Shown here one piece after another: positions 23,986 through 47,870 of a DNA stretch of 64,000 nucleotides. Made by a program: the position numbers and the translations under genes. Position 1 is the stretch's first letter; each line of letters opens with the position of its first letter. Below the pieces are notes generated by a model that saw nothing but the letters and a program-made list of their open reading frames with translations, did not search any database and was not told the origin of the DNA. The DNA is from Branchiostoma floridae. Lineage: Eukaryota > Chordata > Leptocardii > Amphioxiformes > Branchiostomatidae. The stretch lies in contig NC_049981.1 of NCBI RefSeq assembly GCF_000003815.2, forward strand, positions 27,708,396-27,772,395, written 5' to 3'.

Positions 23986-25068
23986 AGAAACGTCGCGTTT
24001 ACGTTGAGTTTAAGCTTGCTTAAATACCAGATTTCGTGCTGTGAGGTTTTCAATATATTTACATGTCAGCGCGTCAGTGGCAAAGTCTGTCACAGACAAG
24101 TTGAACGGTTGACGTTGTTATAGACGCCCATGTAAAGACGCCAAATTCTTAGACGCATATCTAAAGACGCTTCTTAAAAGGTATCAATAGATAATTCTAT
24201 TGCTATTTGGTGACAATTTTAACATGGTTTCACAATCTTCAAACTTCTCAAGTCGTTGGTAAAAAAGAGTGACTATACTTACTCGCCCGTAATTCACTCT
24301 CACCCTCTTGTTGTGACCATTATCATAAGGAAGAGTGACGGTAACGGATGTGGACAGGCGATGAACAGTTTCGGGTTGTTTTGGTCTCTCTGGAAGTTTT
24401 CCGGAAAAGTCAGGATGAACTCCGTACCCTTGTTGTCTCGGACATCTAGAAGAAAAAAAAATCACATACACCCAAGGTCTGCTACTGGGTTTACAAAGTC
24501 ATGGCCATATGCAAGTATCTTGCCAAGGTTTTGCTTGTCATCGTGGTAAATGGGAGATGGGGTGGGATTTCGGTGTAGTTTACGTTTCCCCCGTTAATGC
24601 AGCATTATCTACTCAGCAAGCCAGCCTCAACGTCCATTAAATAGGATCACAAAGTCGAAACTTTCGTATCCATAACAATCCGCTAAAACATAAAACGTGC
24701 ACATATTGTCGAACTGTTCACTGATTGATTCGTGCCTGGCAACGCTTTTGAGGGTTCTTACCTTCACTGCAGCACAATAAAGCGTCCAGAACCAACAGAG
24801 ACAGGAGCACTCGCGCCATCTTGGTTGTACATACAAGACTTTGTTATTCGTTGTTCTTGGAGCTTGCCACCTCAGCAAACTCAACGGTCATTGCCTGTCT
24901 GACAAATTATGCAACAGGAACAAATGCATTCTTTCATTGACATCCACAGCGTGGTACTTTCACAATTTCAAACTAGCAGAATTGACAGTTTACTGCAATA
25001 CGAATGTTATCAAACATAGACATACATTGTCAATGTATCTGGGAAAGGGGATATGTGTTATGTGTGTC

Positions 25069-25099
25069 TGTTTGTTTGTTTGTTTGTGTGTGTGTATGT

Positions 25100-25196
<97 letters not shown>
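25069..25196. repeat. (TG)n microsatellite
   Basis: A near-pure TG tract of more than 100 bases, with a few TGTA and TTTG interruptions at its left edge. The Cys-Val repeat frames it creates are not genes. Confidence 0.98.
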
Positions 25197-25197
<1 letters not shown>

Positions 25198-25719
25198 TAA
25201 TTTATTATTTAACTGCGATACTTCCCGACTGCCAACAATCTAGTTAGCTGGTGAGTCTTCTCTTATTGATCCACTAGTGTTGGTGGTGGTTGTGGAAGAA
25301 TATGAAGCATTGTTCAGCCATGCCAAGTCCAGCCTTCATCATCATCATAACTATAAACCACACTCAAAGGCTCCGACAATCCTAGTCTGCATTCTAAGTT
25401 ATAGCCATGCTTGGTTCTATGTGGTAAAGATAGGCTGACTTGTGGTCTGATATAGATGGTTTTATTCGATAAACACAAAAATGCTCAACTGGGGAAGGAT
25501 TGGGTCTAATCAGTAAAGAGATTCTATCAAGTGAGCAGCCTAACTACATTTTGCATGGATGTGCATGTTACATACATTAGATATACGTAATAGAATATTG
25601 AGAATATCAAAGTTTTTCTATGAATTTATTGATCCTTTGAAATGCTGTTTTCAGTTCAACTTTCATACCTCAAACTGTAATCCTTTACAACCACATATGC
25701 ATAGTTTTATTACGTTACG

Positions 25720-27154
25720 TTATATTGCTCTCTCTACATTGTCATTGATATTTCTGTACAAGAAGATGATCCAGACTTTCCCGGAAGTCCCGTCCTTGCA
25801 AGGCCGAGACCATTCACGGCACCGGTTCCTGCACCGGTTCTGTAGGCACGTCCTGTACTGGTCCCTGTTTCCGGCGCTGTTACCTACAGCCTACAGGGAG
25901 CTGAGAGGAAGATAAGGATGGGGAAACATGACATGACATAAATCGTAACGGTTAAAAACATCACAATACGCAGCACGAGAAGATGACATTTACCCATAGC
26001 CATATCTTCGTCGACCAGTCCGTCGCCGTCATCATCAATGCCGTTCAGCAGCTCTTCGTCCACACGTCCGTCACAGTCGTTGTCCACACGGTCGGCGGGG
26101 ACGGGGGTGGTGGTGCTGCACGAGGCGGCGATCCGGGGATAGCCGTAAGACTCTGGGTATACAAATCCATAGCTATGGCGACAACAAGGAACGAACAAAG
26201 TAGGTCGATTCCATGTTGTTAACTTAGATTTTCATTCCCTTCACATACTAGTACTCTGCTCTAACCTTGAATGATTGAAATGCCGTACAGCTATATGTTT
26301 AAAAGCACATTCACGCACACGTCACGTCATACCTCTTACCTGAACAAACCGACGGTCGCGATGGGAGACAGATGATGGACTTTGTGTGTGCCTATTGGTA
26401 GGTTTAGATGTATGGCAGCATAACTGGTCCCTGGTACGTCATGCCAGGCGGTGTCGCTAGGCAACTGCTGTCCATCCAAACGGAGACCATCTTTGTCAGC
26501 CGACCTGTTTAGATGCCACAATTGATATTCTCATAGGATGCTATTCACAACATTCATTCCCTCCTATTACGAACAGTAACTAAAGTTTTATAATGTGCAA
26601 CTCTACAGAGAAAGCATTGCGTGACATTTCTGTATAACTTTTTACAAACACTTTCAAATGCTCTAACACGGAAATGTTTTCTTCACTCTTGAGAACTTCA
26701 TCGATATACCTTATTGATCCTTATTCTCTGCAACAGCCGTAAAACACGGGACCGACTTTACGTCCCATCCGAGAGGACGTCCCTAGCCAGAGCTAGGTGC
26801 TCATTTGCAGCTGATTCGAGTGTGGAAATAGGTGTAAAATGCACAGCATCGAGGCTTGTCATGACCTCTGGGTTCCGGACCAAACAATCGGCACACAACG
26901 TCGACAATATGCAGGGGCGATATCATGCTTTCGACACATTTACAAGCCGGGTCCGGGTCGGGATATTTGCGGAAAAGTAAATGTGTTTATCAAGGGGCAT
27001 TTACCTGATGACCAGGTTGATATGATGAGTGGGCTCGGCCCTGTCACTAAGAAGGTCAACCGTAGAGAAGGTGTACTCTGCCTCGAACTGGGTCACAGGC
27101 AGGATGACCATCATGAACGGGTCAGTCTCCGTGTGGTCAACTGAGCCAGACCTA
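25720..27154 (-). pseudogene. IgGFc-binding-domain unit E, 3' fragment (exons 7-10)
   Basis: Exons are 27005-27154 (exon 7, DPFMMVILPV-type core), 26340-26504 (8, LPSDTAWHDVPGTSYA), 25994-26172 (9) and 25720-25883 (10). Exon 9 has an in-frame 18-base deletion that removes six residues (GGLRLS) before the metal-binding loops, which are intact (VDNDCDGRVDEE, IDDDGDGLVDED). In exon 10 the first Cys is Ser (SNSAGN). A 1-base loss relative to unit C bypasses the usual stop, adding a novel tail of about 30 residues that ends NDNVERAI. No exon 6 or earlier is found before the mariner element and the lectin gene. It is an orphan 3' half, unlikely to be translated as such. Confidence 0.7.
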
Positions 27155-27338
27155 CTTTAAGAAGTTAACTGGACCATGATGACCTTTTTTGCGGTGGTGG
27201 TACAAATATTCAACTACGGCAACGCTAATTATGATTCCAAAATAACACTGCAAGTCTTTTTTGCACGGACTTGATAATGTAACGATGTGTTCTTACCTAG
27301 ACTTGGGTCGTAGAAAGCGGTCAGCACTAGAACAGTTA

Positions 27339-27912
27339 CGAGGGGCGGTCAATAAGTAATGCCCCTGACCCACCGTCGTCTGATCTAAATGAAATTTTGT
27401 CTGTGTAATGATTCATATCTTTATAGGTTATGTTGCAAAAAACAGCTCTGAACTAATTGTGGTTTTTGATTTACTGGTGTTTGAACTGAGTCAGGTGCGA
27501 AATGGACCAGGTGTGAAATGGAACCAATTGAGTGTCGCGCAGTGATCCGGTTTTTGTATTTGAAAGGACGCACACCAAAGAAGATTTCTGATGAAATGAA
27601 AAAAACTTGTGGTGATGATGCCCCATCATATGACCTTGTAAAACGCTGCCATCCTGAATTCAAACATGGCCGGAAGTCTGCGGAAACAGCTCCCAGACCC
27701 GGTTGTCCCTCTTCTGCCATTGATGAGGCATCTGTTGGAGGACCAACCTGGGGTGTCCTACAAAAACGGTGTCCAGAGCTGTATCAAACGATGGGAGAAA
27801 TGCATAACTCTGGGTGGTTCCTATGAAGAGAAAGACTAATAACTGTGCCAAGTTTCATTAATCTCCTGCTATGGAAAATGGGTCAGGGGCATTACTTATT
27901 GACCGCCCCTCG
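27339..27912 (+). mobile_element. Mariner deletion derivative with perfect 33-bp TIRs
   Basis: The ends cgaggggcggtcaataag... (27339-27371) and its exact complement (27880-27912) form perfect 33-base inverted repeats. TA flanks both sides (27337-27338 and 27913-27914). The 574-bp element is far shorter than a full mariner of about 1.3 kb. The perfect arms suggest recent insertion. It lies just upstream of unit E exon 7, where exon 6 would be expected. Confidence 0.92.
27518..27826 (+). pseudogene. Internally deleted mariner transposase
   Basis: The N-terminus keeps the mariner helix-turn-helix signature (CRAVIRFLYLKGRTPKKI, then SYDLVKRCHPEFKHGRKS and RPGCPSS). After DEASVGG the sequence jumps to the C-terminal end. 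A neighbouring frame holds the expected LYQRWEKC and LGGSYEEKD-like ending. The catalytic DDE/D core is missing, so the element could move only if a transposase is supplied in trans. Confidence 0.8.
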
Positions 27913-28285
27913 TAGGAGTAATTGCAATCCATCTTGGTTTGCACTGATCAGATGAATATGTCAAGCGTTTGATGCCTAACGTAGACTCGCGCGGTCTCAG
28001 ATACGACACAGGCAGGCCAGGTCGTCTACGCGGAACACCACCTGTCGCACCCGCGCATCAGTCAAGAACATTAATATCTATCTTCAAGTTCAAAGGTAAC
28101 AGCAAGAAGCAGCAGACTAGTAACATGAAGGGGGGATCATTAGATTTCCTCACGGGGCGACTCTGCAATACAATATCTTAACTCCAGCCACAGTTAGTTG
28201 CCCTTGTCTCATCCATCAAGTGCATTCTGGATTTTCCACTCAGCGTTTTGGTTTACAATTCATTTGTGTTGAAGTGACTATTATT

Positions 28286-28941: not shown

Positions 28942-31439
28942 TCAGGCGGCCAGGCGCTTCTTCTGGATGACGTACAGCGCACCCATCATGACGACCGCCA
29001 GGGCGCCGACCCCGGCCACGGCCAGGGCAGCGACCAGGTTGCTGCTCCCTTCCCGAGGAACTGTAGATAGATAAAGTAAGCTGTAAATAGCTACTCTTTA
29101 AACACATGGGGAGAAAATTACATTCTTCCCTTAGCCGTCTTCTGACAGCCGTTCCCACTGCCTTTTATCGGCGACTCAGGTATCTGAAAAGGATGGCTTT
29201 AGGTAAACGGTATAGTCAGAAGAAGGTATTGATAAACATGAACCCTCCTTCAACCTCGAGCTCTGTCTGTAGTGTAGGAAGGACAAAACACTCTCCGTCA
29301 TTGGAAAGAACAAGTTACTAACGGCTGTTTACATGAGGAATTGGAACTTCTAGAATGCCTTATTGGTAAGGCGTTGCTGGTTTAACTAACAATGACGGTA
29401 TCATTACTAAAAAAGAAAATGTATTTTCAAGTTTGCATCTTTGTTGAAAGAAGTCCGCTTGGAGTTCTTACGGTATTCCTCCAGAGCTCTCCTGACCCTG
29501 TTGTCATGGCGACTGGATATCCCGGCCTGCGCCGCGCACGTCATGATGGCGGCCTCCACACAGGTCTTGTACTCGTCCTTATCGCCCACACAGTCGTCAA
29601 GCACCGCTGTTAGAAACAGTTAAAAAGTCAAAGACTTAAATCGATGTCTCCCTGCTGCGAGGCGAAGGTCATTCAACAATCTGGAGTCTATCTCTTCATT
29701 ATAACTTTACCTTCATAATATTCCATTGCAATATTCCAGATAAAAATTTAGATTGAGCTTTCAGAAACCTTGCTGTTACTCAAAGACTTTTCATAAAAAT
29801 ATAAACTATAACTTAGTGATAAAGTAAGAAAGATATTACACAATCAAACATTAACAATGGTACATGATGGAATTGAAAGCTTAGAAGTGAGGAATTTGAG
29901 TGCGGTTTTACAGGATATGACAAGTCCAAGGTGCAGTACCACAAGAATCCGTTCGGGGGCGTATTGGTACTTATCATAACAGACCATATGCAAACATAAA
30001 TGGAAGAATGTTTATATGACGCAAGATCAGCGCACCTTTCTCGCAAACGTAGTGCTTCAGCTCGTCGCACACGTGGTTGTTCCAGTTGTAGCTGTACTCG
30101 ACGCGAATCTCCACACACTGCTCTGTGTCAGGGTTGTCCGGCTGGGCACCGTCCCAATTGCTGTAGTCGGAAGAAGTCAGAGTGCTGCCGTCACTCCAGA
30201 CAAACTGGTGCTGAAAATCAAGATCAGATATCAAATTTTAGTGAATCATGCATCGTTATATCAATTGATTGGATGCAGGTTTTCCTTGATAACAGCACAG
30301 ATTTCAAACTTGAAAAAAAAACTTTACTAAAGGAAGTATAGTATTCACTTTTGAACGTTCCACCTTACATTTTATCATGATATAGAGTGCAGTCTAATTC
30401 AGCATGATCAGACTTGAGGGTCCTTACGCACACAAACATCTGTCATATTAATATCCTTAAATCTTGTATATAGCATTCAAATTTTATTTGCTTACCGTCG
30501 GACTGTTCAGATCGTCCAGGCCGATCCAGGTGTTGTCATTGTAGCTGTTTTTGATGGTGTCCCCGAGGTAAGTGTCCATTGCGGCCGTCTTGACCACGAC
30601 GAGACGTGCCCCCTCAGCCTGGCATGTGGCCCTGGCGTCCGCGTACGGTTTGCTGTCGGTAGAGAACTTCAGGCACGTGCCCTGCACCTCTACGTACCCA
30701 GCCGGGCAAGCAGCTGCGATGGACGGGGGGAAAAGTGTTGACGGTTTTGTGACACAAAATTACCGAGAGGATTCGTGATTTGTATATATGTATGTCTTTC
30801 ACATTTCAAGTGACTTATTACCGGTTCAAGATATCGTTCTTTTTTAGAATTCTAGTCTATCCAGGAACTCTGAAAAATAGGACAAATCTTTATTATTACA
30901 ATGATCAAAATCATCATCTAACCAAAACGCAGGAAACTGCCCCGTCGTCACCAAAATATATTGCCAGTCTATACATGACAAAAATAATCAGAGCATGACT
31001 ACTAAGTAACGCCACCATACATGTTATTGTTGTCAGGGTTTGCTCACAACATTCATCTGAACTTTGATACTTCCCAATGGCGGCACTGAAAACATCATGG
31101 ATGTTCACAGAGAAAGTAATGTACCAAAGGATAGTACAGTACTTGGGATACACTACGTTAAGCCTTGCGAACGCAGTGAGAGTGACTTCAGTTTTGAATA
31201 ACCATGTCAACTAAATGCGCTGACTCTCAAAAGTTCGGCTTAAAGGGGAACTGGGTGAAAAGAAAATATGACCTGTGCTTGTCGATTTATATAACAAAGT
31301 TTCTAGATTAGGTTTTCAATACGACGTCAATGGGACACTGACAACGAAGCACAAAACTGTTTAGACAAATCTAGATGTACTCACCGAGACTTTGCCCTAC
31401 CAGGCCCAGAATCACGCTCAGCAGATATAGGCGCGACAT
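28942..31439 (-). CDS. C-type lectin receptor, type I membrane protein (233 aa)
   Basis: Exons are 31385-31439, 30496-30713, 30036-30210, 29472-29606 and 28942-29060 (702 nt in total, phases consistent). A signal peptide (MSRLYLLSVILGLVGQ) is followed by one C-type lectin domain from CPAGYVEVQGTCLKF through WIGLDDL, a QPD triplet (GAQPDNPDTEQCVEI) and WNNHVCDE to YVCEK. QPD favours galactose-type ligands in this family; the usual WND is WNN here, so calcium site 2 may be altered. The fourth exon gives a juxtamembrane Cys module (CVGDKDEYKTC...RVRRALEEY). The last exon gives a helix (NLVAALAVAGVGALAVVMMG) and the short tail QKKRLAA. These last two exons match the ends of receptors F, G and H next to it. 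There is no ITAM or ITIM. A likely cell-surface recognition receptor. Confidence 0.88.
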
Positions 31440-31513
31440 CTTGCTTACGTGCGACAGTATGTGATGGAATCAAAGGGCACAGGTAGGTAGGGCCAAGCTA
31501 ATGTTTATCTTCT

Positions 31514-31535
31514 AGCTACTCCCCTTTGTTTGCAT
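31514..31535 (-). promoter_or_regulatory. Shared promoter-proximal motif of the lectin gene
   Basis: The plus strand reads agctactcccctttgtttgc here, about 75 bases upstream of the lectin start codon. Nearly the same word precedes receptors G (42369-42390) and H (47849-47870). On the coding strand it contains AACAAAG (SOX/TCF-like) next to ATGCAAA (octamer-like). Conservation between otherwise unrelated head genes suggests a common regulator. The factor assignment is a guess. Confidence 0.5.
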
Positions 31536-31779
31536 GCGGTGATTAACACTGGCATGTCTCTTACGGAGAAAGCATGCGGCTAGTGAAATGTTGATCGTGT
31601 CACACTTCCAACTGAAGGCAAAACATTACGGGCACTTCATGCTTTCAATGATCTTTCAATGACTCATACAGTCCAAAATAGTTACGATGATTACTATTCG
31701 ACGGCTTTCTAATTAAAGATATGCTCACTGAAGAAAGGTAATGAAAGAAGACGATAACAAAATCCAGTAATGTAATATG

Positions 31780-31785
31780 TTTATT
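31780..31785 (-). terminator. Candidate polyadenylation signal of receptor F
   Basis: AATAAA on the minus strand, about 85 bases past the stop codon. Equivalent signals lie at 37650-37655 (G) and 43021-43026 (H). Confidence 0.5.
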
Positions 31786-31870
31786 TTTCCATTGGACCAT
31801 CTAAAGCTACACGTTAATTTCAAATTACATCGTCGCACGTGGCTGAAAGATTGCGTTTCTTGTAGTCCAA

Positions 31871-34800
31871 TCAGGCCGCCAGGAGGCGCTGCTTCTGGAG
31901 GTGATACGTCATCGCCATGACGACGACCATGACCACACCCACGGCGACGACAGCAATGGCGGCCACGACGAACTCCTCTGCCTCTGCCTCTGCCTCTGGA
32001 GCTGCACAGATACAGAAACAGCAGTGCACTTTGTAATTATATCAGCCCAGGGCGCGCACATGGAGAGAAATCACTGGCTTCTGAGTTTGAGACAAAAAAC
32101 GAATATATGACTTCATTCTGCTCTTTGTAATTAGTAGTAATGCGAAAGCTGTAGTAGATTTTTCTTTCTGCTATTTCAACTAGTTTCATTTAGATTGCCA
32201 TCATGCTATGACAACACCGATGAAGTATTTGACCAGAAATTAATGGTTGGCCAACAACAAATGAAAATTGAAGATAGGACAAATTACTTTGCTAGGGGGG
32301 TAAAGGAGGCCATCTACAAAAGAGCACATCAGCCGACACTCAACAGAGACGGGGGCCGATATCGCCTGCCAGGAATTTATGATTCGTTACTCGAATCACG
32401 TGTCTCTAAGTCACATGATCAGAGTAACTGAATCGTCACTCCTGAAGAAGGTCGACGGAAGTGCGACTGAAAATTCCAGGCAAGCTAATTTTGGTGTTGT
32501 AAGACAGTGGAAAATCTTCAATAAGATAGGACAAAGTCCCTCGTGAAATTGATTTTTTCTTTCTAAAGTGTCGAGTCACGTTAACATGTTGTATATTCAA
32601 TTCAACATGTCAACTACTTTTACGCCCACAATCAAGTGATGTTGGCACAGTTTTCCAGCTTTGGTTAACTTACAATACTACAACACAGGTGACAATGTTT
32701 GTCATCAATGGCAGCAGCACAGCCCACATAAAAACCTTACCGAAGTGCTCTGTGTCCTCCGCAGCCCTCCTGGCGCGGATGTTCCCAGTGCGCCTGCTCT
32801 CCAGGGCAGCGCTGGCGCAATTGGTGATCTGCTCCTCCACACAGCTCTTGTACTCATCCTTGTCGTTCTCACACGAAAGTGGTTGCTCTGAAAGGAATGC
32901 AAATGTTGAAACCCTGCTTAATGGCATGTTGACTGGACATCGCGATTCATTTCTAAAACATTATGCCTGATTAACAATCGCGGGGAAGTCAAGATAAATA
33001 GTTATGTGTACTTCTTACGAGCTACGCCGCTATGGAATTTGCATTTGGAGCATTAGTAAAGGAAACATTTTGCGCACATAGTTCCCCGCGCACAAGTCCA
33101 GTAGATGATAAATGTGTGGAGACAAAAGTGATCTTACCTCCTGCCAGATCTTCATCGATTGCTCCGTCACCGTCATCGTCCAGTCCATTCGCCAGCTCCT
33201 CGTCAATCAACCCGTCACAGTCGTTATCGACGCCGTCACCGAAAATGGTGGCTGTAGCCACGCAGGGGGCAGCGATCTGGGCCAGCCTGAGGCCTCCCGG
33301 GTAGCCGTACGACTCGGGGGAGGTGAAGCCGTACACGAAGATTCCAAAGGTGACGATGGGGGAGGTGTGGACCAAGGTGTGCGTGCCATCAGGGATGTCC
33401 AAGCGGGCGCCAGACCAGGCGGTGCCGGGGATGGGAGTCCAGGTCACGCTGGGGTCCAGCGGATTGCCATTCAGACGGAGTCCAGCCTTCTCAGAATCCT
33501 GTAGTAGTTTAATGAATCAACCTTCCAATCAGTGATTCAACCAGTCAATTAGACACATGTCTTGCTGTGAATAAGGATGCTCACGGCATAGTCAGAAGAC
33601 ACGATGCCATTAACTGATGATAACCAGCTTGTGAGTAGCATAAAAGAAATGTAGACACCTCTAAATGTCTATTGACAACATGACGAAGCAGCACAATGAT
33701 CACCATACGCCGTATTCAGCATCACATGTCATTGCCATCGTCCCAAGACTGAGATCACATACCTTTATCGCGATGTTTAAATGGTGAGTCAGTGAGGCGG
33801 GGTCAGATATCAGCTGGGTGGTGGCGAAGGTGTAGTCAGCTGCGAACTGCTGCAGGGGCGGGATCATCAGCATGAAGGGGTCGGTGGCTGTGTTGTCGGC
33901 GTCACCGGTTTTACTAGAGAGCCGGAAGAGATAGGCGTAACTGAGCAGTCTTTGGAACTAGTGATTTTATAGAATTCATTTAAGGAGCTATTTCGCTAAA
34001 TTTTAAATGTATAAGACACAAGGCCTTGCACAAAAAAGACTAATAGACCCATTTCAAACCCCATTTCAAACCCCGGCGCGCTGACAACAATACATTGTAT
34101 AATTTTATCTTATAACATTGTTATGTGCACATTGTTTTCGTTGAGTTTCGAAAGGGGTCTGTTGCCATATGTACGTATGACATGACAAAAAATCGTACCT
34201 ATATTGCATCAAAATCACCGGTTCACTTGCAAGTACATGAAGATACTCGTCCGATGCGGCACCAAACTCCCAGAACTCACCGGCGTTCAGAGTCTGTGTG
34301 TTCTGGCTTGTGACGTCGACCTAGAAGGATGGAAATCGCAGTATTTGCAACATTGGTTTTGGATAAAAGTTTTGCGGGTAGAGCATAAATGCTCAACATA
34401 CTTATTTTCAGGGCTCAAGGTAATGAATTGTTATTCATCTGTTCACAACTAGAAAAAAAGAATGTTTTAAAGAAGTCAAAAAGTGTTTCCATGCCTCTAT
34501 TTCTCAGATTTATCTGGCTTAACCTGTGTATTATCCCTTGCGGCGATGACCCTGAACTTGTCCCCCGCCGACCTCTTGATCAGCGGCACGGTGACGAATT
34601 CCTTCCCCCAGGTGTCCACGGGTGGGATCATCTCTACTATGTGGTCACCTGTTCCGGACTGCCCGTTGCCAACAACGACGAAGAGATTGCCACTCAGGAC
34701 AGCGACGTTCTTGTCGGAGGTAATTTTGGACCCTGTAGAATGTGGGCAAATGGTGCGTGTTATTACATAATACATAGTTCCTAGTCGTTAGATAACACTT

Positions 34801-36365
34801 TTACAAAGTAAATCTTCCGCACACTTTATAGCATAGTTTATTTTTGTAATTATTCTTTCTCTGTGGAACTCCATGCCCCACTGACCTGTCAAATCGCCTT
34901 CACTCTGCACCTGCAGGGTCCGCAGCCGATCTAAGTTGACGGTGATGGTCTGTCCGGCCGTGTACGCTGTCCCGTCAAACGTCACATCCTGCGTCGGCAC
35001 GATGTTGACGGTCGTTCCGTCGTTAATGCCGACGATACCGAACTGCGATGGTTGGTTGGAACTCGGATTGTAGCAGGACACGTAATACTCGGTCCCCATC
35101 ACGTCGGTGGGAAGGGCCAGGAAGGCGTCAGAGGAGGCCTGCTCAGCAAAGACGCCGTAAACCACGATCTCTTCAGTAGCGGTGACGAGGATGCCAGTGC
35201 TCTGTGAGGCGCTACCGCGGAGCTCCACAGCAGCACGCGGCAGATTCACGGTGATGACCTGAACACGAATGAAAACCAGTCAGAACAACACAACATGGAT
35301 CCCGGCCCACAAGCAAACTAATGCTGCCCGTCGGTTCGGTCGTCGTTTGACAGCTGTCGATCCAGCCGTATCAACAAATACCGAATCAAAGTAGCGAGAC
35401 ACCACGGGACTGATTGAGCTATTAGCGAAAGGGATTTTGATATTCTTTCCTCCTTTTCTAGTGTATAGAAAAGTCTTTTCGCTACCAAATTAAAAGTAAA
35501 AGTTGAATCCAAAAAGGGTTGGTTCTATTAAGGGATAGCGATCAAGTTTGCCATGGCCATCTAGTCATCTAGCCTCGGCGGTCAACCATAGAGCTTACCT
35601 TACAGCCCAAAAGTCAACCGACCTACCCACCTCTCCAAACCTGATGTTGAATGTGGTGGTGAAGCCAACGCCTAGGACATCCACATAGACAGTGGCGGAA
35701 GTCTGGGTAGTTCCCGCCACCAACAGCCTGGGTTCGTTCAGGTCACGCTGCATGTTCTCCGTGAACGTCAGGATGAACTCTGTGCCCTTGTTGTCGCGGA
35801 CTCCTGTTTGGAAGAATTCAGAGTGGTGTTTTTGATTTTCTATATAGAGGAAAAATACTCCTACAGGCAGAGGTTAAATACTCCTTCGGGTAGAGGATAT
35901 GTCCTCCTTCGGCAGAGGACAAATACGCCATCAGGCAGAGTACTTATCCTCTATCATGCAGGGTATCCTCTATCAGGCGGAGTATATATTGCCCTTCAGG
36001 CGGAGTACACATCCTCCAAGCTGTTGGGCTATTCTCTAATTCGTTATGTATCATCAGTTAGGATGAACTATTATTGATTTGTTTGAGTATTTATACTCAT
36101 CTATTTGTGATTGTTGGATGAAAGTTTCTTAAAAATGCAAATACCACGTCAGAAAGGCTACATTTTGACAAAAATAAAAGCTTGATATTTGCTGTACATG
36201 GTTCACGCGTCTACTTTCATGATAAACGACTGCTTGATTTTAGCATAATCTAGTCATCATTATAAGATCCTTGTATCATAGACTTGCACATGAAAAATCC
36301 ACATTACCTTGGCCTGCTGCAACGAGCACCAACGTCAGAAGCGTAAACGCCGGTATGACCCTCAT
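31871..36365 (-). CDS. IgGFc-binding-domain receptor F (574 aa, type I membrane)
   Basis: Nine coding exons: 36308-36365, 35631-35803, 34886-35258, 34524-34732, 34199-34320, 33763-33913, 33138-33498, 32741-32887 and 31871-32001. The 1725 nt are in frame throughout. A signal peptide (MRVIPAFTLLTLVLVAAG) precedes an IgGFc_binding domain of about 330 residues (GTEFILTF, DAFLALPTDVMGTEYYVSCY, INDGTTVNIVPT, WGKEFVTVPL, TLNAGEFWEF, MLMIPPLQQFAADYTF). Next come a linker (VTWTPIPGTAWSGA) and two Asp-rich loops (DGVDNDCDGLIDEE, LDDDGDGAIDED) like MopE-type metal-binding repeats. A Cys module (CENDKDEYKSC...RARRAAEDTEHFG), an acidic spacer, a Val/Ala-rich helix and the tail HLQKQRLLAA finish it. Exons 3/4 and 8/9 of the secreted units A-E are single exons here. 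The role is probably ligand binding at the cell surface; the ligand is unknown. Confidence 0.88.
32195..32500 (+). mobile_element. Penelope-like retroelement 3' fragment
   Basis: The plus strand encodes a stretch ending TNYFARGVKEAIYKRAHQ, PTLNRDGGRYRLPGIYDSLL. This resembles the C-terminal end of the GIY-YIG endonuclease of Penelope-like elements (R-x-x-EAI...P-LNRD-G...YD-LL). A 3' block 'ctcctgaagaaggtcgacgg' follows. It lies in intron 8 of receptor F, antisense to it, and is 5'-truncated. Confidence 0.5.
35855..36020. repeat. Minisatellite (caggcagaggacaaat / tcctccttc units) in receptor F intron 1
   Basis: About six degenerate units of 24-30 bases with the core ttc(a/g)ggcagag and a(t/c)atcctc. 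The 89-residue frame through it is a repeat artefact. Confidence 0.7.
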
Positions 36366-36903
36366 TTTGCGCCACTGAAAATTCACATCAACACATTAGA
36401 AATGTCTGTCATGTGCAGATTCATGGAGGTATCTTGGCTAAATTAGCCAGTGCAGGTTACATGCCAAGTACATACAACTACGTACAGTCGATAGTCTATC
36501 ACAATGAAGAGTATAGTCGATATGTAAAATCGGAACTTGCAAACACGGCCGTATTTTCACCTTCTGCGATACTGTTGCCATGGGGTCGTTGGCATGTCCA
36601 AACAAATCATGATCTGTCACATGCCCTCTGTAGTTCTTCGGACAGTATAGCAACTCGTCCACATTTATACAGTCGTAAGGTTTCAAACATGGATATGATA
36701 TATGATTGTTTCAAGAAATTTCACTATCTAGTATATACTGCTTTGATATACTCAAGAGACTCAACGTGAACATCTAGAGTTAATGTGGTTGTTCCCGTTA
36801 TTTCACAAAACCTCATCTTAGCACCATGAACTTAAAGTTTGATTGAAGATATATTGCATGTAAATTAGTACGCTGTAGACCGTATATGATGAAATATACT
36901 CAC

Positions 36904-36995
36904 CCAGGCCTTGTTCAACCGCTCTTGTAAAACCGTGTACCGTCACACCGCTGTGATGTACGTGTGATCCTCGGTTGTGTCAATCTAAACGATAA
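36904..36995 (-). other. Receptor F 5' untranslated exon and promoter side
   Basis: A GTGAGT donor at the 36904 boundary and the CAG acceptor just before the ATG exon (tggcgcaaaATG) define a leader intron. The upstream exon shares 'cacacgtacatc' with the equivalent exons of G and H. A diverged form of the shared promoter word lies at 37003-37022. The transcription start is not determined. Confidence 0.45.
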
Positions 36996-37784
36996 CCGCG
37001 TAGACTCTGCCCTTTGTGTTTGTGATACACACCGTGTTATTTGTCTAGAAGTCTTCCTTTGATAACTTCTTGAATTCCGTTCTTCTGTTGTTGCGTTTTT
37101 TTAACATCTTACAGATGGTAGAGTTTTATTATCTTCAGAGTTCGAAAACGTCAATGTGGTTCAAATGATGAGATTGTAAGATACTCGTATAAGATACGTA
37201 TGTCATATGAAGCTATCACTATGATTTTTAATCAATTGGAAAGTGAGTGAATCTGTCACCAATAAGCAGGTCCCTTGAGCTGTCACGCGAGGAAAATAAA
37301 CAGGGAAGCTCTGCCAGGGCCGTCCATAAACATTGGAACAGACCACATTCGTACGAATATGTTACAGCTTTCGGAAAATTGCTAAATTACTACTCAATAG
37401 AACATAATACACTTCACCGCCTTGCTTCATTAATCTTAAGTACTTGTACTGTACGTAGAGCCTATCGTAAAGCGTCATGAGGTAGACCGCATTTTTATAC
37501 ACATTCTGCCCTGTATGCATATATATGGTTGTGTAACTTTCAACACTCTTCATTTAACATAAGATCCAGATACCATCCAAATGCCATCCTTCAAGCGACC
37601 TCATAAAATATGTAGAAGGAAGAAACAATTACATTTGTTATTTAGTACGTTTATTTGTGTATGTTGACGTTGTAGGTGTTGATATCAGCAACTACTGATA
37701 AGTTTATTTACCAGGTATCATGCAACTATAAATCATATTTGTATCATGCTCAAAGCTGGGTATCTTGTATGCCTACTAGGTCAA

Positions 37785-40700
37785 TTAGGCCGCCAGGAGG
37801 CGCTGCTTCTGGAGGTGATACGTCATCGCCATGACGACGACCATGACCACACCCATGGCGACGACAGCAATGGCGGCCACGACGAACTCCTCTGCCTCCG
37901 CCTCTCGAGCTACACAGTACAGAAACAGCAGTGTTGGCTTTAGAGTCCAATCAAATCAGGTTGTATGAAGGGCAACAAAACCGAGCAAAATGTTCTGATT
38001 ATCTATCACCTACTGACATTACGCTGATATATGCAATGATTGCTTCTTTTTTTTAAGTTTCGCCAAAACAGACATTCAGTCAGAATCGGATGGTCAACAG
38101 ACATCATCATGTAGAATAACATCTCCTGTCAGTCAGTTAGTCAGTCAGTCAGTCAGTCCCATAGCTGGTATCCATCACAAATCTATTCTGGCTATAACTG
38201 GCAACCGTCATTAATGAAGTACAATGAAATACGATCTCAATAACTGACCATTCGTACCAACACCAAGCAGCGTTTGACATTGGCCTCAGCAGACACTGTC
38301 GCACCAGGTCCTTGACTTACCGAAGTCCTCTGCCTCCTCTGCGGCCCTCCTGACGCGGTTGTTCCGAGCGGTGCCGCTGCTCAGGAGCGCAGTGACGACA
38401 CAGTTGCCCAGGTTCTGCTCCACACAGTTCTTATATTCGTCCTTGTCACTCTCACACGGAACCGGTGCCTCTGAAGAGGCTACATAGTAATACGTTTCTA
38501 GTCAGAGACTTTGTAATAAAGGTCCATTCAACGTCATCACATGACATGCCAACCTTACGGCAACTAGGCAGATACCTTTATCAGAAAACAATGAACATTG
38601 CGACTGCTTGCCGGAAGGTACAGCAAGTATATTTATTTATTCAGTATATACCTTGTGCCAAACGTACGGTCCAAAACGTAACTAAATTTAGTTAAGATTA
38701 ATTGGCCAGTAGTCAGTATTATTAGTACAATGAAGGGCCTTTAACACCAGGTATAAGGAGATGTATGAATACTTCTTACGTCCTGCCAGATCTTCATCGA
38801 TTGCTCCGTCACCATCATCGTCCAGTCCGTTCGCCAGCTCCTCGTCAATCCGCCCGTCACAGTCGTTATCGACGCCGTCACCGGAAATGGTGGCAGTGGC
38901 CACGCAGGGGGCAGCGATCTGGGCCAGCCTGAGGCCTCCCGGGTAGCCGTACGACTCGGGATGTGTGAAGCCGTACACGGAGATTCCAAAGGTGACAATG
39001 GGGGAGGTGTGGACCAAGGTGTGCGTGCCATCGGCGATGTCGATCTGGGCGCCAGACCAGGCGGTGCCGGGGATGGGAGTCCAGGTGACGCTGGGGTCGA
39101 GCGGATTGCCGTCCAGAAGCAGTCCAGCCTTCTCAGAATCCTAGAACCATTCGATATATCAATAAAGCAACCAATGAGGCGCATGTCTTTACATATATTT
39201 TTGTCGAGTTCAACAATATCGCAATAACCTAATTCCCTAAACTAAACATATTTTCATTGAGTTGAAAAACTCAAACTCAACATATTTTCACGTCTGTGTG
39301 GGCCACGGAAAAGGCAATGTGTTATCATTAATTATATAATGTTGCTATTGTGTTATGGCTATCATTTCAGTTCCTCACCCTTATCGCGATGTTGACGTGG
39401 TGAGTCACCGATGAAGGGTCAGATATCAGCTGAGCGGTTGCAAATGTGTAGTCAGCTGCGAACTGCTGCAGGGGCGGGATCATCAGCATGAAGGGGTCGG
39501 TATCTGTGTTGTCGGCGTCACCGGTTTTACTGCAAGGATGGAGAAGGCAAATACAGTGGTGACTGACAAATTCTGAAAACTATCCAAATTACAGCAAGGG
39601 TGAAAAAACACTAAAGGGTTCAGTTAGGGAGACGCCAAAGGCGCAAAACACATAGAGCACGAAATAATGCAAAGTTCCATATTCATATACAGTATAACAT
39701 ACCTACGACAATGCAAAAATATCGTACCTGTATTGCATCAAGATTACGGGTTCAGTTGCAACCACATAATGGGACTTGTCAGTTCCGGGATTAAACTCCC
39801 AAAACTCACCGGCGTTCAGAGTGACGGGGCTAGCGCTCTTTTCTGTGACGTTTACCTGAAAGACGATTCAAATTCGTGATCTAGACTTTCAATCACCATT
39901 TTGACGAACTACTTCCCCATAACTACAGTGAAAAACATACGAAATAGACCACTTAGTAACATAATTACCTAGATCAATGTTACATCTATTTCTGACGAAG
40001 GCCACAATATCAAAGTGCTCCATTGCTTCTTCTGAATTCTTTGACAGCCATGGACCCTGATGAAATAAAGTCCGACCTGTGTGTTGTCCCTAGCGGCGAT
40101 GACCCTGAACTTGTCCCCCACCGTCCTCTTGGCCAGCGGCACGGTGACGAACTCCTTCCCCCAGGTGTCCACGGGTGGGATCATCTCTACTATGTGGTCA
40201 CCTGTTCCGGACTGCCCGTTACCAATGATGACGAAGAGATTGCCACTCAGAACACCAACTTTCTTGTCGGAGGTGATTTTGGACCCTGACGGATGTGAAA
40301 AAAAAATAATAATGTGTGTTCTGACACCATTCAGAGTAGATACGCAAGACAACAATCATTCAAGCCATTGAATGTCTTTGTAAATCCTGTAATTCTATCC
40401 AGCAGTTGCTTGAGTAGCTGTTATTTTACGTACCTTGCTTGAGCGTCCTGTAACTTCCTCTAGATACAGAGTTGAAAGTCTTGTACCAATAATGATTAAG
40501 AGGCGCAATTTCCAAACGTTAGGGGTTTCGTAGTGGAAGCTATCGCTTGATTCTTCACACATTCCTCTTTCCTTTTTTTCCTTTAATCCCCCCCCCCCCC
40601 CACACACACACCCGTTCCATGGCAACCAACCTGTCAAGTCGGCATCACTCTGTACTTGTAGAGTCTGCAGCCGGTCCAGAGTGACGGTGATGGTCTGCCC

Positions 40701-41740
40701 GGCCGTGTACGCTGTCCCGTCAAACGTCACATCCTGCGTGGGCACGATGTTGACGGTCGTTCCGTCTCTGATGCCGACAACTCCGAACTGTGATGGTTCG
40801 TTGGAACTCGGATTGTAGCAGGACACGTAATACTCTGTCCCCAACACGTCGGTGGGAAGGGCCAGGAAGGCGTCAGAAGACGCTCGTTCCGCAAAGACTC
40901 CATAAACCACGATCTCATCGGTGGCAGTGATGATGATACCAGTGTTCTGGGTTGCGCTTCCGCGGAGCTCTACGGCCGTGCGTGGCACGTCAACGGTGTT
41001 GACCTGAAATGACATACGTGCGTGAGAGCAATCTCAACGGCTGAACTTTTGGATGAATAATGAGGCACTGGTTAGCCAGCCAGTCTGGTCCTGCTAGTCA
41101 CGTTAACCAGCCCAACCAGTCAGTCCTGCAATTCTAGCCAGGAAGTCAATCATAGCCAGCACGTACCCATTACATAATGTACATACGGAAGTGAATGGTT
41201 ATTAAAAGTTGCACCATAACCCATAAAAAAATATGGAATTTTAACCTTATATAAGTGACTTTGGCCTTATAAGCTTACGATCCGTCGCTTTCACAGTGTG
41301 AGTTTGTTCTATCGCCGACTAACTACACACCTCTCCGAACTTGATGTCAAACGTTTGTTGGAATCCCGCGGCAGGGACTTCCACACTGACAGTGGCGGGA
41401 GTCTGAGTAGTTCCCGCCACCACCAGCCTGGGGTCGATCCCGTTACGCTGCGCATTCTCTGTGAACGTCAGGATGAACTTTGTGCCCTTGTTGTCGCGGG
41501 CACCTGGCAGTGTACACAAAAATCAAATATGTCTCGTGATAATCTTGACATTTCCTCTGCGACCAGATACGTTGTTGATGTCATGTCAATCATTGAGAGG
41601 GATCTTAAGAAGAACAAATAAGCTGAAATATCAAGGTATATATGTTAAGCAACACATGAACACGAGCACAAATGTCAAACCAGCTCACCTTGGCCTGCTA
41701 CAACGAGCACCAGAAAGGCGAACACAGAAATAGCCTTCAT
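37785..41740 (-). CDS. IgGFc-binding-domain receptor G (573 aa, type I membrane)
   Basis: Exons are 41689-41740, 41331-41503, 40631-41003, 40077-40285, 39728-39855, 39379-39529, 38780-39140, 38321-38470 and 37785-37909, summing to 1722 nt in frame. The signal peptide is MKAISVFAFLVLVVAG. Domain order is as in receptor F: IgGFc_binding (GTKFILTF, DAFLALPTDVLGTEYYVSCY, IRDGTTVNIVPT, WGKEFVTVPLAKR), linker, two Asp loops (VDNDCDGRIDEE, LDDDGDGAIDED), Cys module (CESDKDEYKNC), acidic spacer, helix and the tail HLQKQRLLAA, with stop TAA. Exon 5 has two extra residues compared with F and H (VNVTEKSASPVTLNAGEF). Introns and flanks are strikingly similar to receptor H about 5.4 kb away, so the pair arose by recent tandem duplication or is being homogenised. 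Confidence 0.88.
38126..38158. repeat. (CAGT)n microsatellite
   Basis: Seven to eight GTCA/CAGT units with one TTAG interruption, in the last intron of receptor G. Confidence 0.85.
40588..40613. repeat. Poly-C / (CA)n tract in receptor G intron 3
   Basis: A run of about 13 C followed by CACACACACA just upstream of the exon 4 side. Such tracts often vary in length between alleles. Confidence 0.8.
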
Positions 41741-42268
41741 CTTGCGCCTGTGCAATTCATAAGATATGATATTAGTATTTTTTAGTCTCAGCTAATTATT
41801 CAACTGTCAAAGTATCAAATCATCTGACATTCTTTATCTCATTGCCCTCATTTATTTTCCAGCGAGAAAAACTATAATCGTGATTTAAAATCAATATTAA
41901 TGTTGTCAAACACTTCTGTTTGTATGTTTGTATACTGATATGCTTTAACTGAACTGAGTTGGAAAAAAAAACTACGTCAATATTCGAATGGAATAGGGCT
42001 TTATAAAATATTAACATTTCAAGTATCAACTGGATACAAGTATTCTCTAATCACACCAAAAGTATTTTCTACCCAATGTGCAAATATTTACGACTCATTA
42101 ACTTGAGGTGCCAGAAAATCAGAGCAATTAAATGTACCTGAGGTACTGTGTTTGATCTCGCCAGTTACCGATCGTCACGACACACAAACGTAAGCTACCG
42201 ACTGTTCATAATGAGCAGAACAGGTATAGCTATTTACTGTACAGTTGATCAAGTGGATACGTACTTAC

Positions 42269-42390
42269 CTGGGGATTGTCATACCAGCGGCCAAATGAGT
42301 CACAAACTTCGCGGCACCCCGCTGTACGTACGTGTCACAGTCGATGCCAATCCCAGAGTTAAGTAATTAGCTCCTCCCCTTTGTATGCAT
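42269..42390 (-). promoter_or_regulatory. Receptor G leader exon and promoter-proximal motif
   Basis: A CCCCAG/GTAAG donor at 42269 ends a 5' untranslated exon (gcggggtgcc...gtacgtacgtgtcaca region). Just upstream at 42369-42390 is agctcctcccctttgtatgc, the shared word also found before the lectin gene and receptor H. The transcription start is inferred to lie between them. Confidence 0.5.
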
Positions 42391-42644
42391 TTGTGTTAGG
42401 CTACCGACATCCAGATCTTTGACCTGTGTGCCAATGGCATCAAGGTCTTCAAATTCTGTTGTTCCGACAACGTTCTAGGTCTACCAGAGGTCAATGTGCT
42501 TTATATCATAGAATACAAGATTGCATTCCCATGATGTGTTTGTACATCACGTACAAAGTACTAGTGGCCAAAACAGCCATTACGACGCATTGACGGAAGC
42601 TTGGTGAACAGAAAAGGGAACGTTTCTCAATTTTAACAGTGAGA

Positions 42645-42714
42645 CGGGAAACGTGACGATATTTGAGACGATCTCCCAACGGGAAACGTGGCGATATTTG
42701 AGACGATCCCCCAA
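42645..42714. repeat. 35-bp direct duplication upstream of receptor G
   Basis: Two copies of cgggaaacgtg(a/g)cgatatttg...agacgatc(t/c)cccaa lie back to back. A related single copy (gagacgatcccttagc) lies near 48310 upstream of receptor H, so the block predates or accompanied the G/H duplication. Confidence 0.8.
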
Positions 42715-43134
42715 TGAAAGAATTGATATACTTTTCTGATGTTGAAATGTTAGGCCAACTTAGGGTAATGTCACAACCCTTGGTAAACACCAGCATTCCT
42801 TCAACGCTGTGTGCAATTTACAAAATTGAGTATGAAATTTGCAATTTCTAACCTTGTTTTGTTGGGCCTTACCATCATTCTTTGTTGTACACAAAGTATG
42901 AAATGTATCTCTATGTTGATGGCAAAGGCACTGGCTATAACTTGTCCAGTCAAGTTTTCTTTACAGTGCTCATTGAATTGTAAAAAAAGGAAGCAACCGC
43001 AAAATTTACGATTTAGTTTGTTTATTTATTCATGTATGCATTAGGTATCGATATCAGAAATTATCGATTAGTTTAGACGCCAGGTCTTAGTCACAGATAT
43101 ATCAGGTTCAAAGATGGAGTAGCTTGCAGGCTCA

Positions 43135-46100
43135 TCAGGCCGCCAGGAGGCGCTGCTTCTGGAGGTGATACGTCATCGCCATGACGGCGACCATCATCAC
43201 ACCCACGGCGACGACAGCAATAGCGGCCACGAGGAACTCCTCGGCCTCCGCCTCTGGAGCTACACAGATACAGAAACAGCAGTGTGGGCTTTTAGAGTCC
43301 TAGGGCAACAAAACCGAGCAAATTGTTCTGATAATCTATCACCTACTAACAATACGCTGATACACGTAAGTGCAATACTAAGTTGCTTTCTTCAGTTTCA
43401 CCAAAACAGACATTTAGTCAGAATCGGATGGTCAACCTATCATGTAAAGTGACATAGTCTGGTATCCATCACAAAATCTATTTTGACTATAAATGGCAAC
43501 CATTATTAAATGTAGAACAATGAAACATGATCTCAATAAGTGACCATTCGTACCGACACAGATTAACGTTTATGCTAACTAGAAACAGGTTTGACATTGG
43601 CCTCAGCAGACACTGTCACCCCAGGTACTTGACTTACCGAAGTCCTCTGCCTCCTCTGCGGCCCTCCTGACACGGTTGTTCCGAGCGGTGCCGCTGCTCA
43701 GGAGCGCAGTGACGACACAGTTGCCCAGATTCTGCTCCACACAGTTCTTATATTCGTCCTTGTCACTCTCACACGGAACCGGTGCCTCTGAAGAGGTTAC
43801 ATAGTAATACGTTTCTAGTCAGAGACTTTGTAACAAAGGTCCATTCATCGTCCTCACATGACCTTACGGCAACTAGGCAGATACCTCTATCAGAGAACAA
43901 TGACCGTTGCGACTACTTGCCGGCCGGAAGGTACCGTTGCAGCAAGAGTATACTTATTTATTCATTATGTGACAAGAGTACGGTCTGAAACGTAACTAAA
44001 TTTAGTTAAGATTAATTGGCCAGCAGTCAGTACTATTAGTACAATGAAGGGCATTTAACACCAGGTATAAGGAGATGTGTGAATACTTCTTACGTCCTGC
44101 CAGATCTTCATCGATTGCTCCGTCACCATCATCGTCCAGTCCGTTCGCGAGCTCCTCGTCAATCCGCCCGTCACAGTCGTTATCGACGCCGTCACCGGAA
44201 ATGGTGGCTGTAGCCACGCAGGGGGCAGCGATCTGGGCCAGCCTGAGGCCTCCCGGATAGCCGTACGACTCGGGCTGGGTGAAGCCGTACACGGAGATTC
44301 CAAAGGTGACGATGGGGGAGGTGTGGACCAAGGTGTGCGTGCCATCAGGGATGTCAATCTGGGTCCCAGACCAGGCGGTGCCGGGGATGGGAGTCCAGGT
44401 CACGCTGGGGTCGAGCGGATTGCCATTCAGACGGAGTCCAGCCTTCTCAGAATCCTGGAACCATTCGATGTATCAATCAATCAATCAATCAATTAACCTA
44501 CCAATGAGACACATGTCTATATATACATGTTTGTGTAGGTCAGCAACATGGAAAAACCTAATTACCTAAACTGATTCGCACGTCTTCTCGCATTATTACC
44601 TGCCAGTTGAAGAGAGGAGAGGTAGAGAAATGTAGCACTTCTGAGTGTCTATATAGACAATATGAGTATGTGGTAAATCACCCCATATAGATATACATGT
44701 AGCATCATATGTTGTTGATAGGATGCTAAGGTTATCATTACAGTTGCTCACCCTTATGGCGATGTTGAGATGGTGAGTCAGTGAGGCGGGGTCAGATATC
44801 AGCTGAGTGGTGGAGAAGGTGTAGTCAGCTGCGAACTGCTGCAGGGGCGGGATCATCAGCATGAAGGGGTCGGTGGCTGTGTTGTCGGCGTCACCGGTTT
44901 TACTGGATGGATGGAGGAGGCAAGTACAGTACTAGTGGTGACTCAAAATTTCTGAAAACTATCAAAATTACAGCAAGGGTGGCTTTAGTTATAGAATTCA
45001 GTCACGGAGATCGTTCAACGGACGCTGAGTGCACAAATTACATAATACAACAATGTACTGTACGAAATTATACAAAGTACCATACATATACATTGTATAT
45101 GTATATGGTACATACTAAACATAACATACTAAAACAAACAAAAACATCATACCTATATTGCATCAAGAGCACGGGTTCCGTTGCGACGACATGAAGGTAC
45201 TTGCCAGATCCGGGACTGAACTCCCAGAACTCACCGGCGTTCATGCTGTGGGTGTTCTTGTCAGTGACGTCGACCTGAAAGACGATATTTAAAATATAGA
45301 CTTTGACTATTTTTAACAAACAACTTCAGCATAACTACATGGAATAGATGTATACGAAAGCCACTTGCAACTTGTCGTTAACTTAATGTGTTATACCAAA
45401 TAGTGTCCCTTTTTTGTTTTGGATTCCTTGTGTGAAAGTCTGACCTGCGTGTTGTCCCTAGCAGCGATGACCCTGAACACGTCCCCCGCCGTCCTCTTGG
45501 TCAGCGGCACGGTGACGAACTCCTTCCCCCAGGTGTCCACGGGTGGGATCATCTCCACTATGTGGTCACCTGTTCCAGTCTGTCCGTTACCAATGACGAC
45601 GAAGAGATTGCCACTTAGGACAGCGACGTTCTTGTCAGAGGTGATTTTGGACCCTGTAAAGATGTGGCAAAATTGTGCGTGATATTACGAAATAGGTGAT
45701 ACATGTTGATTGTACAGTGAAACCTGCCTTAGGGGTCCCCTGAGTATAGGGGCCACCTTGCAATTGCGGTCAGTTTTTGTCGGCTCCTTGAATTTTTCCC
45801 ATTGACCTTTACTTTACTTTTAGGCAGGTGTATCACCAATATCCGAACACACTAGATTTCATATTTGTTATCATTGGATTCCTTACAGTTACACATCGCT
45901 CTTAGTTTAATGAATTCCCTTCCCCACTGACCTGTCAAGTCGCCTTCACTCTGTACTTGTAGAGTCTGCAGCCGGTCCAGACTGACGGTGATGGTCTGTC
46001 CGGCCGTGTACGCTGTCCCGTCAAACGTCACGTCCTGCGTCGGCACGATGTTGACGGTCGTTCCGTCGTTGATGCCGACAATACCGAACTGGGATGGGTC

Positions 46101-47142
46101 GTTGTTGGAACTTGGATTGAAAGAGGCCACGTAATACTCGGTCCCCATCACGTCGGTGGGAAGGGCCAGGAAGGCGTCAGAGGAGGCACTTTCGGCAAAG
46201 ACGCCGTAAACCACGATCTCTTGAGTAGCGGTGATGATTATACCGGTGCTCTGTGATGCGCTCCCGCGGAGCTCCACAGCAGTACGCGGTACTTCGACGG
46301 TGTTGACCTAAAGAGACGCCACATTATTATCTGGACGGCTGAATGAATTGATCAAGAGACACTGGTTAGCAAGCAATTCTCGTATTGCTAGCCATGTCAG
46401 TCAGTCTAAATAACCAGCCCTGCAATTCTAACCAATAAGTCAATCAGAGCCAGCACGTACCCATAGCTACAAATGTAGTATGTAAAATGCGCGTAAGGAA
46501 TCTGATGGACGTTCAATGTTGCACCAGAACCTCAAAACAAATGTATGGAATGTTATCCTTAGATAAGTGACCGCGACCTTAGGTGCTTGAGTTCCGTTGC
46601 TTTCGAATTTCATGCTCTGCGTATGTGCTAACACTGCCTAACGACCCACCTCTCCGAACTTGATGTTAAACGTTTGTTGGAATCCCGCGGCAGGGACTTC
46701 CACACTGACAGTAGCCTCAGTCTGGGTAGTTCCCGCCACAAGCAGCCTGGGGTCCACCCCGTCACGTTGCTTGTTCTCTGTGAACGTCAGGATGAACTCT
46801 GTGCCCTTGTTGTCGCGGGCACCTGGCAGTGTACACAGAAACGAAAGGTGTCTTGTGATAAAATGGATATTTTCCGTACAACCAGTTTGATATGATGCTA
46901 ATCGTTATCTAATTCATTACTTTGTGTAATAGCTGTTGCCATATATTGTATCATGTACAATTATCGTGCAATACAGTTCCTCTATTCTAACCAATAAGCT
47001 AAAAGAGACGACTCCTTTCCCGCTAACCTATCGGAAGAAATATCGAGGTGAGTTGAGCCACACAGGTGAACAAACGTCAAACCAGCTCACCTTGGCCTGC
47101 TACAACCAGCATCAGAAAAGCAAGCGCAGAAACAGCCTTCAT
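43135..47142 (-). CDS. IgGFc-binding-domain receptor H (572 aa, type I membrane)
   Basis: Exons are 47091-47142, 46650-46822, 45932-46307, 45445-45653, 45153-45274, 44752-44902, 44094-44454, 43638-43787 and 43135-43259, summing to 1719 nt in frame. The signal peptide is MKAVSALAFLMLVVAG. The IgGFc_binding head reads GTEFILTF, DAFLALPTDVMGTEYYVASF, INDGTTVNIVPT, WGKEFVTVPLTKR and MNAGEFWEF. The Asp loops (VDNDCDGRIDEE, LDDDGDGAIDED), Cys module (CESDKDEYKNC...RVRRAAEEAEDFG), helix (FLVAAIAVVAVGVMMVAVM) and HLQKQRLLAA tail follow. Exon 3 has one extra Asn (NPSSNNDPSQFG) and lacks the Cys that F and G have in YYVSCY. A surface receptor of the same family; ligand and signalling partner are unknown. 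Confidence 0.88.
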
Positions 47143-47748: not shown

Positions 47749-47870
47749 CTAGGAATCGGCCTACTGGCGCTCGAACAAAATCAAAACTTGCTTGGCACCC
47801 CGATGTACGTGTGAGCACAGTCGGTACCAATCTCAACGTTAAACAATTGGCTCCTCCCCTTTGTTTGACT
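47749..47870 (-). promoter_or_regulatory. Receptor H leader exon and promoter-proximal motif
   Basis: A donor at the 47749 boundary (CTAG/GTGAGT) ends an untranslated first exon homologous to that of G (ggcaccccg...tgtacgtgtgagcaca). The shared word ggctcctcccctttgtttg lies at 47849-47870. The match to G extends for about 100 bases around it. Confidence 0.5.

Follow-up and report, generated by a model that had tools for sequence, protein, structure and literature searches.

Organisation of the locus

The window analysed here, a stretch of 64,000 nucleotides of the Branchiostoma floridae genome (contig NC_049981.1, positions 27,708,396 to 27,772,395; designated C3), holds an array of genes, lettered A to H, and a gene for a C-type lectin, which ends in the same kind of stalk and transmembrane (TM) exons as its IgGFc-binding-like neighbours F, G and H. 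The lectin gene was read from the sequence, while F, G and H were modelled from splice sites and phases. Genome searches covered 513,431,437 bases in 431 contigs, and those for the stalk and TM cassette, for IgGFc-binding domains and for C-type lectin domains (CTLDs) scored the best candidates, so that the counts given are lower bounds.

All four genes lie on the minus strand and give one open protein each (lectin 233 amino acids (aa), F 574, G 573, H 572), with an N-terminal hydrophobic segment and a single C-terminal TM-like segment. The lectin gene sits between E and F, approximately 430 bases from the stop codon of F. Its five exons encode, in order, a start codon and signal-like peptide up to a phase 1 donor (31385–31439), the first half of the CTLD (30496–30713, phase 1 to 0), its second half with a QPD motif (30036–30210, phase 0 to 1), a stalk with cysteines spaced C-x9-C-x7-C and an RVRR site (29472–29606, phase 1-1), and a linker, TM helix, short QKKRLAA tail and stop (28942–29060). 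Genes F (31871–36365), G (37785–41740) and H (43135–47142) have nine coding exons each, with stalk exons at 32741–32887 (RARR), 38321–38470 (RVRR) and 43638–43787 (RVRR) and TM exons at 31871–32001, 37785–37909 and 43135–43259, respectively. Coding phases 1,0,1,0,2,0,1,1 are common to these three genes; those of the lectin are 1,0,1,1.

The recognition heads are unrelated, as the preliminary description of the locus had proposed. The lectin protein passes the curated cut-off for Lectin_C (PF00059, 75 bits against 22.6, E = 9.3e-21, residues 39–149), and QPD and WNN can both be read in it; we take QPD to be a galactose-type motif, and QPD and WNN together presumably predict sugar and calcium binding. 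H, the IgGFc-binding-like protein given a whole-protein scan, passes the cut-off for IgGFc_binding (PF17517, 263 bits, E = 4.4e-78, profile positions 1–297), and exons at the positions of F and G match the same domain in the genome-wide exon-level search.

Were the lectin gene a prediction artefact, its lectin domain and its stalk and TM exons would belong to different transcripts. The model does come from sequence alone, the donor that follows its lectin domain is weak (GTGCGC), and the accessible part of one report describes a lancelet Lectin_C chimera exposed as a gene-prediction error by expressed sequence tags (PMC4967905). On the other hand, the gene has GT-AG introns with matching phases and a 233-aa frame open across all five exons, and in this reading of the locus the stalk and TM exons would otherwise be headless. 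Trans-gene splicing is unneeded, because the gene supplies a start codon and a signal-like exon of its own, which likewise speak against an artefact; we consider one quite unlikely.

Divergence between F and G is uneven, with 56% amino acid identity in the stalk, 95% in the TM exon and 90% in exon 4, a pattern that suggests gene conversion between the copies. Two of the exons of F, G and H are fusions: one is split in A, B, D and a distant gene on the same contig (L009, below), the second in B, C, E and L009; because the equivalent exons are split in these genes, introns were probably lost in the F–H branch.

A shared stalk and transmembrane cassette

In codon alignments, the lectin shares approximately 50% amino acid identity with F, G and H in the stalk and 42–45% in the TM exon; taken overall, TM identity spans 42–47%. 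Far from falling to chance level, the stalk alignments of the lectin with F and G, and the TM exon alignments with F, G and H, were matched in score by 0/5000 composition-preserving shuffles. The stalk exon has phase 1-1 in all four genes, as expected of a class 1-1 module. The earlier observation that the lectin and the three IgGFc-binding genes end in the same two exon types, with identical splice phases, therefore holds.

Within the window, lectin stalk and TM queries rank F, G and H far above everything else, and the best other match of any cassette query, obtained with the F TM exon, lies on the opposite strand near 55268 (E = 0.010). Genome-wide, the lectin stalk retrieves, up to E = 10, at least six places: the four genes of the window, L009 on C3 (E = 0.10), which is a distant IgGFc-binding gene with a stalk and TM exon, and L010 on contig C2 (E = 0.36). 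The lectin TM exon retrieves at least five: itself, H (E = 0.12), F (0.17), the L009 gene (0.35) and G (0.37), and the F TM exon finds the identical five genes among the matches listed.

Short cysteine-rich stalks and hydrophobic helices can come to look alike by convergence, and here the exons are short, their composition is skewed and single genome-wide E-values for the TM exon lie at 0.12–0.54. No single E-value of this size would convince; two separate exons that select the same genes from 513 Mb seem to us convincing, and argue that the shared ending is real. Taken with the 0/5000 shuffles for stalk and TM alike, this leads us to reject chance similarity: convergence is very improbable and appears close to refuted for the lectin and the IgGFc-binding genes, the von Willebrand A (vWA) genes described below being less settled. 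On this comparison of sequences, the anchor shared by the lectin and F, G and H is homologous. The 86-residue cassette of H had no match in Pfam or among PDB sequences up to E = 1. All eight anchored-type stalk copies found fit C-x9-C-x7-C with [DEQ][YF]xxC, and the pattern was absent elsewhere in the loci examined (315,336 bases including overlaps).

A third head and the size of the family

Two vWA loci on C2 (L010 and L015) have C-x9-C-x7-C stalks with phase-1 junctions, followed by a TM exon, and inspection of splice sites by eye gave phase 1-1 for the stalks of L009 and L010 and for both copies in L015. At L015 (near 25.857 Mb), two tandem stalk copies precede one TM exon, and a convertase-type site is present in the second copy alone. 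In a tree of cassettes the vWA pair has 92% support. The cassette, or a version of it, thus sits under three unrelated heads, namely lectin, IgGFc-binding and vWA.

At least seven anchored genes were found (lectin, F, G, H, L009, L010 and L015), compared with at least 62 exon-level IgGFc-binding matches and 150 scored matches among 922 CTLD candidates, and the cassette therefore looks rare. The modular family first proposed from the lectin and its neighbours is in this respect wider than one pair of heads.

A predicted release site

All 7/7 anchored genes carry R-X-[KR]-R in the last stalk, always between the stalk cysteines and the membrane; the first L015 copy is without it. The module can accordingly be described as a cysteine stalk (C-x9-C-x7-C), a putative proprotein-convertase (furin-type) site R-X-K/R-R, a short linker, one TM helix and a tail. 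Lectin, F, G and H have one such site per protein and no cysteine after it, so cleavage there would detach the head; the TM region of L009 and that of L015 do contain a cysteine. The residues flanking the motif differ among the seven genes and the motif is kept. Shuffling of the tails (the sequence after the third cysteine) yields it in 3.6–31% of cases, with the highest frequencies in the vWA genes; multiplied over six distinct tails, the frequencies give 4e-7 on the assumption of independence, which does not hold for related genes. The cytoplasmic tails are short (approximately 8–15 residues), ending YHLQKQRLLAA or YVIQKKRLAA, and neither a signalling motif nor a charge within the TM helix was seen by eye in lectin, F, G or H; tails this brief and featureless are insufficient for signalling.

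The reading that best fits the cassette is that of a releasable anchor, with release predicted from the motif. The cassette might instead simply anchor, the R-X-K/R-R being incidental in a basic stalk, in which case the lectin and F, G and H would be permanent surface receptors, 'receptor' being the word of the preliminary description. A clear TM segment and a short tail in all four proteins are in keeping with this, as are the arginine-rich tails past the third cysteine, where the shuffled frequencies above show how readily the motif arises. Its conservation in 7/7 genes despite differing surroundings, its single occurrence in each window protein and the presence of secreted-type paralogues in the same array count in the other direction, and permanent anchoring is possible but doubtful. 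The short tail and the furin-type site make the term 'receptor' doubtful and point to release more than to signalling.

If the releasable-anchor reading is right, one protease class would release the heads and turn presumed receptors into soluble effectors. The heads would then probably all be soluble in the end, B, C and E through their early stop and the anchored proteins through cutting by a convertase. They may bind microbes or mucus; the name IgGFc derives from a human protein.

Sister genes that stop within the stalk

In B, C and E, a short last exon after a phase-1 junction carries NCAGNRDQYRTC or a variant of it. The terminal exons of B (7892–7962, minus strand; NCAGNRDQYRTCLQNRCRNLVP then stop) and C (13859–13929, minus strand; NCAGNRDQYRTCLQNRCRNLLP then stop) are truncated stalks with secreted-type ends. 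That of E (25720–25883, minus strand), whose acceptor was picked by likeness to B and C, has a diverged stalk start, GNSAGNRDQYRTC, and is without the first stalk cysteine; no TM exon was found for this gene. Against the lectin stalk, shuffles scored as high in 0/5000 cases for B and C and 1/5000 for E; against the G stalk the corresponding figures were 0 for B, 1 for C and 105 for E, and E against F gave 23. The array continues to the left of the window, where the adjoining 20 kb (L047 and L048, C3:27688400–27708399) contain three further ends of the secreted type; one is on the plus strand, and one may belong to gene A.

The stalk is consequently not restricted to F, G and H, the genes named in the preliminary description, since early-stopping paralogues end within a homologous stalk exon. 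The truncated ends of B, C and E, with the stalk of L009, mark the stalk as a long-standing part of the IgGFc-binding genes. In the region ~14000–27200 of the window, C and E seem to be without 5′ exons and D without 3′ exons, and part of the array may consist of pseudogenes or be rearranged.

Origin of the lectin gene

We think it probable that the cassette is a releasable plug-in anchor native to one branch of the IgGFc-binding genes and that the lectin arose by head replacement in a tandem copy. In an F/G/H-like copy, the head exons would have been swapped for a two-exon CTLD, the 5′ region and the anchor being retained through the swap; the phase 1-1 stalk exon is able to follow any extracellular head with a phase 1 end, and a version of the cassette lies under vWA heads. 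The protein would first be made as a membrane-anchored precursor, its stalk cysteines would probably pair chains, and a furin-type cut outside the membrane would free the head, B, C and E reaching an equivalent soluble end via the stop inside their stalk exon. Head replacement, a mechanism suggested by the arrangement of the genes, is the simplest history and is favoured because the lectin lies in the array, its 5′ region is similar to that of G and of H, and no cassette match was seen near the CTLD relatives examined.

The 5′ region of the lectin gene aligns with H (score 52) and G (score 50), the 5′ exons of which are putative, at scores matched by 0/1000 shuffles; against D, 95/1000 shuffles did as well. 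With the window cut into 850 tiles, the highest same-strand scores other than self fall in H (52 and 51) and G (50 and 47), the next being 35, and the region scored 48 against itself on the other strand; the maximum in 1660 tiles of other genome DNA was 40. An element within it, ACAAAGGGGAGTAGC (31515–31529, minus strand), recurs with one base different at 42370–42384 in G and 47850–47864 in H. As stand-alone evidence this 15-base motif was rejected: it has three exact matches, but with three mismatches allowed 34/100 shuffles were equal, which is not significant. The 3′ flank of the lectin gene was likewise left unused, as 1/300 shuffles equalled its match to F but 220 and 118 of 300 those to G and H.

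Among the scored matches, the closest CTLD belongs to a copy of window 29732–31871 on contig C9 (L040, C9:16336500–16346499), in four pieces of 77–87% DNA identity, which spans the end of F through the lectin domain and lacks the stalk. The reading frame of the copy is interrupted in the second lectin exon and ~1.1 kb of other sequence is inserted upstream; as a copy of window DNA with a broken frame it was rejected as an independent donor and is read as derived. The next relatives, on C13 and C8, have 51–59% identity, and in the three regions examined, among many matches, the lectin domain is split at the same place, the surroundings include vWA-, WSC- or vWD-like frames (by eye), and the adjacent 6–10 kb held no cassette match.

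Spread in the opposite direction, from vWA genes or the lectin to the IgGFc-binding genes, is rather unlikely. It would accord with the stalk score of 73 between lectin and L010, above those of L010 with F (47), G (59) and L009 (51), and the cassette tree leaves the order open. Weighed against these are stalk-type exons in seven genes of the IgGFc-binding family (F, G, H, L009, B, C and E) versus one lectin, the three further such ends left of the window (heads not traced), and the TM exon, which places the lectin with the IgGFc-binding genes and not with L010.

Several results count against the favoured account as a whole, with its releasable IgGFc-binding anchor and head replacement. The tree built from the cassettes does not nest the lectin within F, G and H and leaves direction open, with 36% support for an IgGFc-binding group, and estimates of synonymous divergence for the lectin cassette, where they can be computed, range from 0.76 to 1.5, which leaves the event undated. 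The 5′ match of the lectin to F is weak (77/1000 shuffles); a BLAST-type genome search with 181 bases returned the lectin and its C9 copy alone, the likeness to G and H appearing in local alignment only; and the lectin introns have no clear likeness to receptor introns (best 21/300 shuffles). The L010 TM exon is unlike that of the lectin (1728/5000 shuffles) and resembles the F and G exons weakly (23/5000 and 79/5000, respectively), and the links from vWA exons to stalks rest on splice sites judged by eye. Finally, the convertase site is a predicted one, a motif match in an analysis of sequence.

Head replacement remains the history that we favour, and the earlier interpretation is in sum partly supported. 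Exon shuffling, as first proposed, is compatible with the phases, although matching phases alone are weak evidence, 1-1 exons being favoured in lancelets according to the accessible part of PMC4284660. The likely steps towards a new chimeric protein can be traced in one array, as 5′ similarity, a captured head and a kept anchor, with a copy elsewhere (C9) that left the anchor behind. The short module, without a Pfam match and under three unrelated heads, is newly named here, and its predicted release site would supply a motif with which to look for more heads. As a long shot, it could be a general lancelet module of releasable anchors, by which lectin and IgGFc-binding chains from one array are paired through their stalks into mixed-head dimers and freed by convertase as soluble bispecific recognition molecules; pairing of this kind is suggested by homologous stalks with three cysteines, an odd number, and by 5′ control that is possibly shared.

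Relation to known systems

Zona-pellucida-type (ZP) proteins combine an ectodomain, an R-X-X-R site, a short linker, a TM helix and a short tail, and work alike in having a convertase site ahead of the helix. The module described here differs in its length of ~45 residues, its three cysteines and the absence of a ZP domain, none being found in lectin or H up to E = 1. FCGBP proper has vWD-type repeats after its IgGFc-binding domain. H shares the domain (PF17517) and has a DxDxDG repeat, stalk and TM segment in place of vWD; IgGFc_binding was its sole match over the cut-off, and of two weaker matches below it (up to E = 1) none was to vWD. Mincle is a type II protein, and we know of no cassette that it has in common with other heads. 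The available portion of one source reports an interchain disulfide in its neck (PMC11632378), where, similarly, a cysteine beside the lectin domain can pair chains. The snail VIgL family (FREP, GREP and CREP) likewise joins one common part to varied recognition domains, including a C-type lectin, but that part is immunoglobulin-like and the proteins occur in plasma, as far as the accessible text of PMC5433772 goes, whereas here it is a membrane anchor; no immunoglobulin-like domain was found in lectin or H up to E = 1.

From the parts of the literature available, exon shuffling is reported to proceed faster in lancelets than in any other metazoans, with a 1-1 bias (PMC4284660); many lancelet chimeras, a Lectin_C one included, are argued to be prediction errors (PMC4967905; PMC6071037); dispensable lancelet genes are enriched in C-type lectin domains (PMC12373286); and the IgGFc-binding protein is gel-forming, with limpet adhesive proteins likened to it (PMC7333891). 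The novel lancelet domain pairs of PMC4284660 resemble the present case in phase 1-1 exons and extracellular domains; the accessible part of that report gives genome-wide rates and describes no shared cleavable anchor, and the word lectin is absent from its accessible main text. Exon shuffling in lancelets is already known. In a literature search of titles and the starts of abstracts, with subscription journals mostly outside its coverage, no description of the present combination turned up, which agrees with the novelty claimed earlier.

Neighbouring features

Between E and the lectin gene (window ~27340–27920), matching ends GAGGGGCGGTCAATAAGTAATGCCCCTGACC lie in opposite orientation around a transposase-like frame, which we take to be the start of a mariner-type transposase. 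Upstream of H, on the minus strand (window ~52200–62100), exons resemble by eye those of a CUB and sushi (CCP) mosaic gene.
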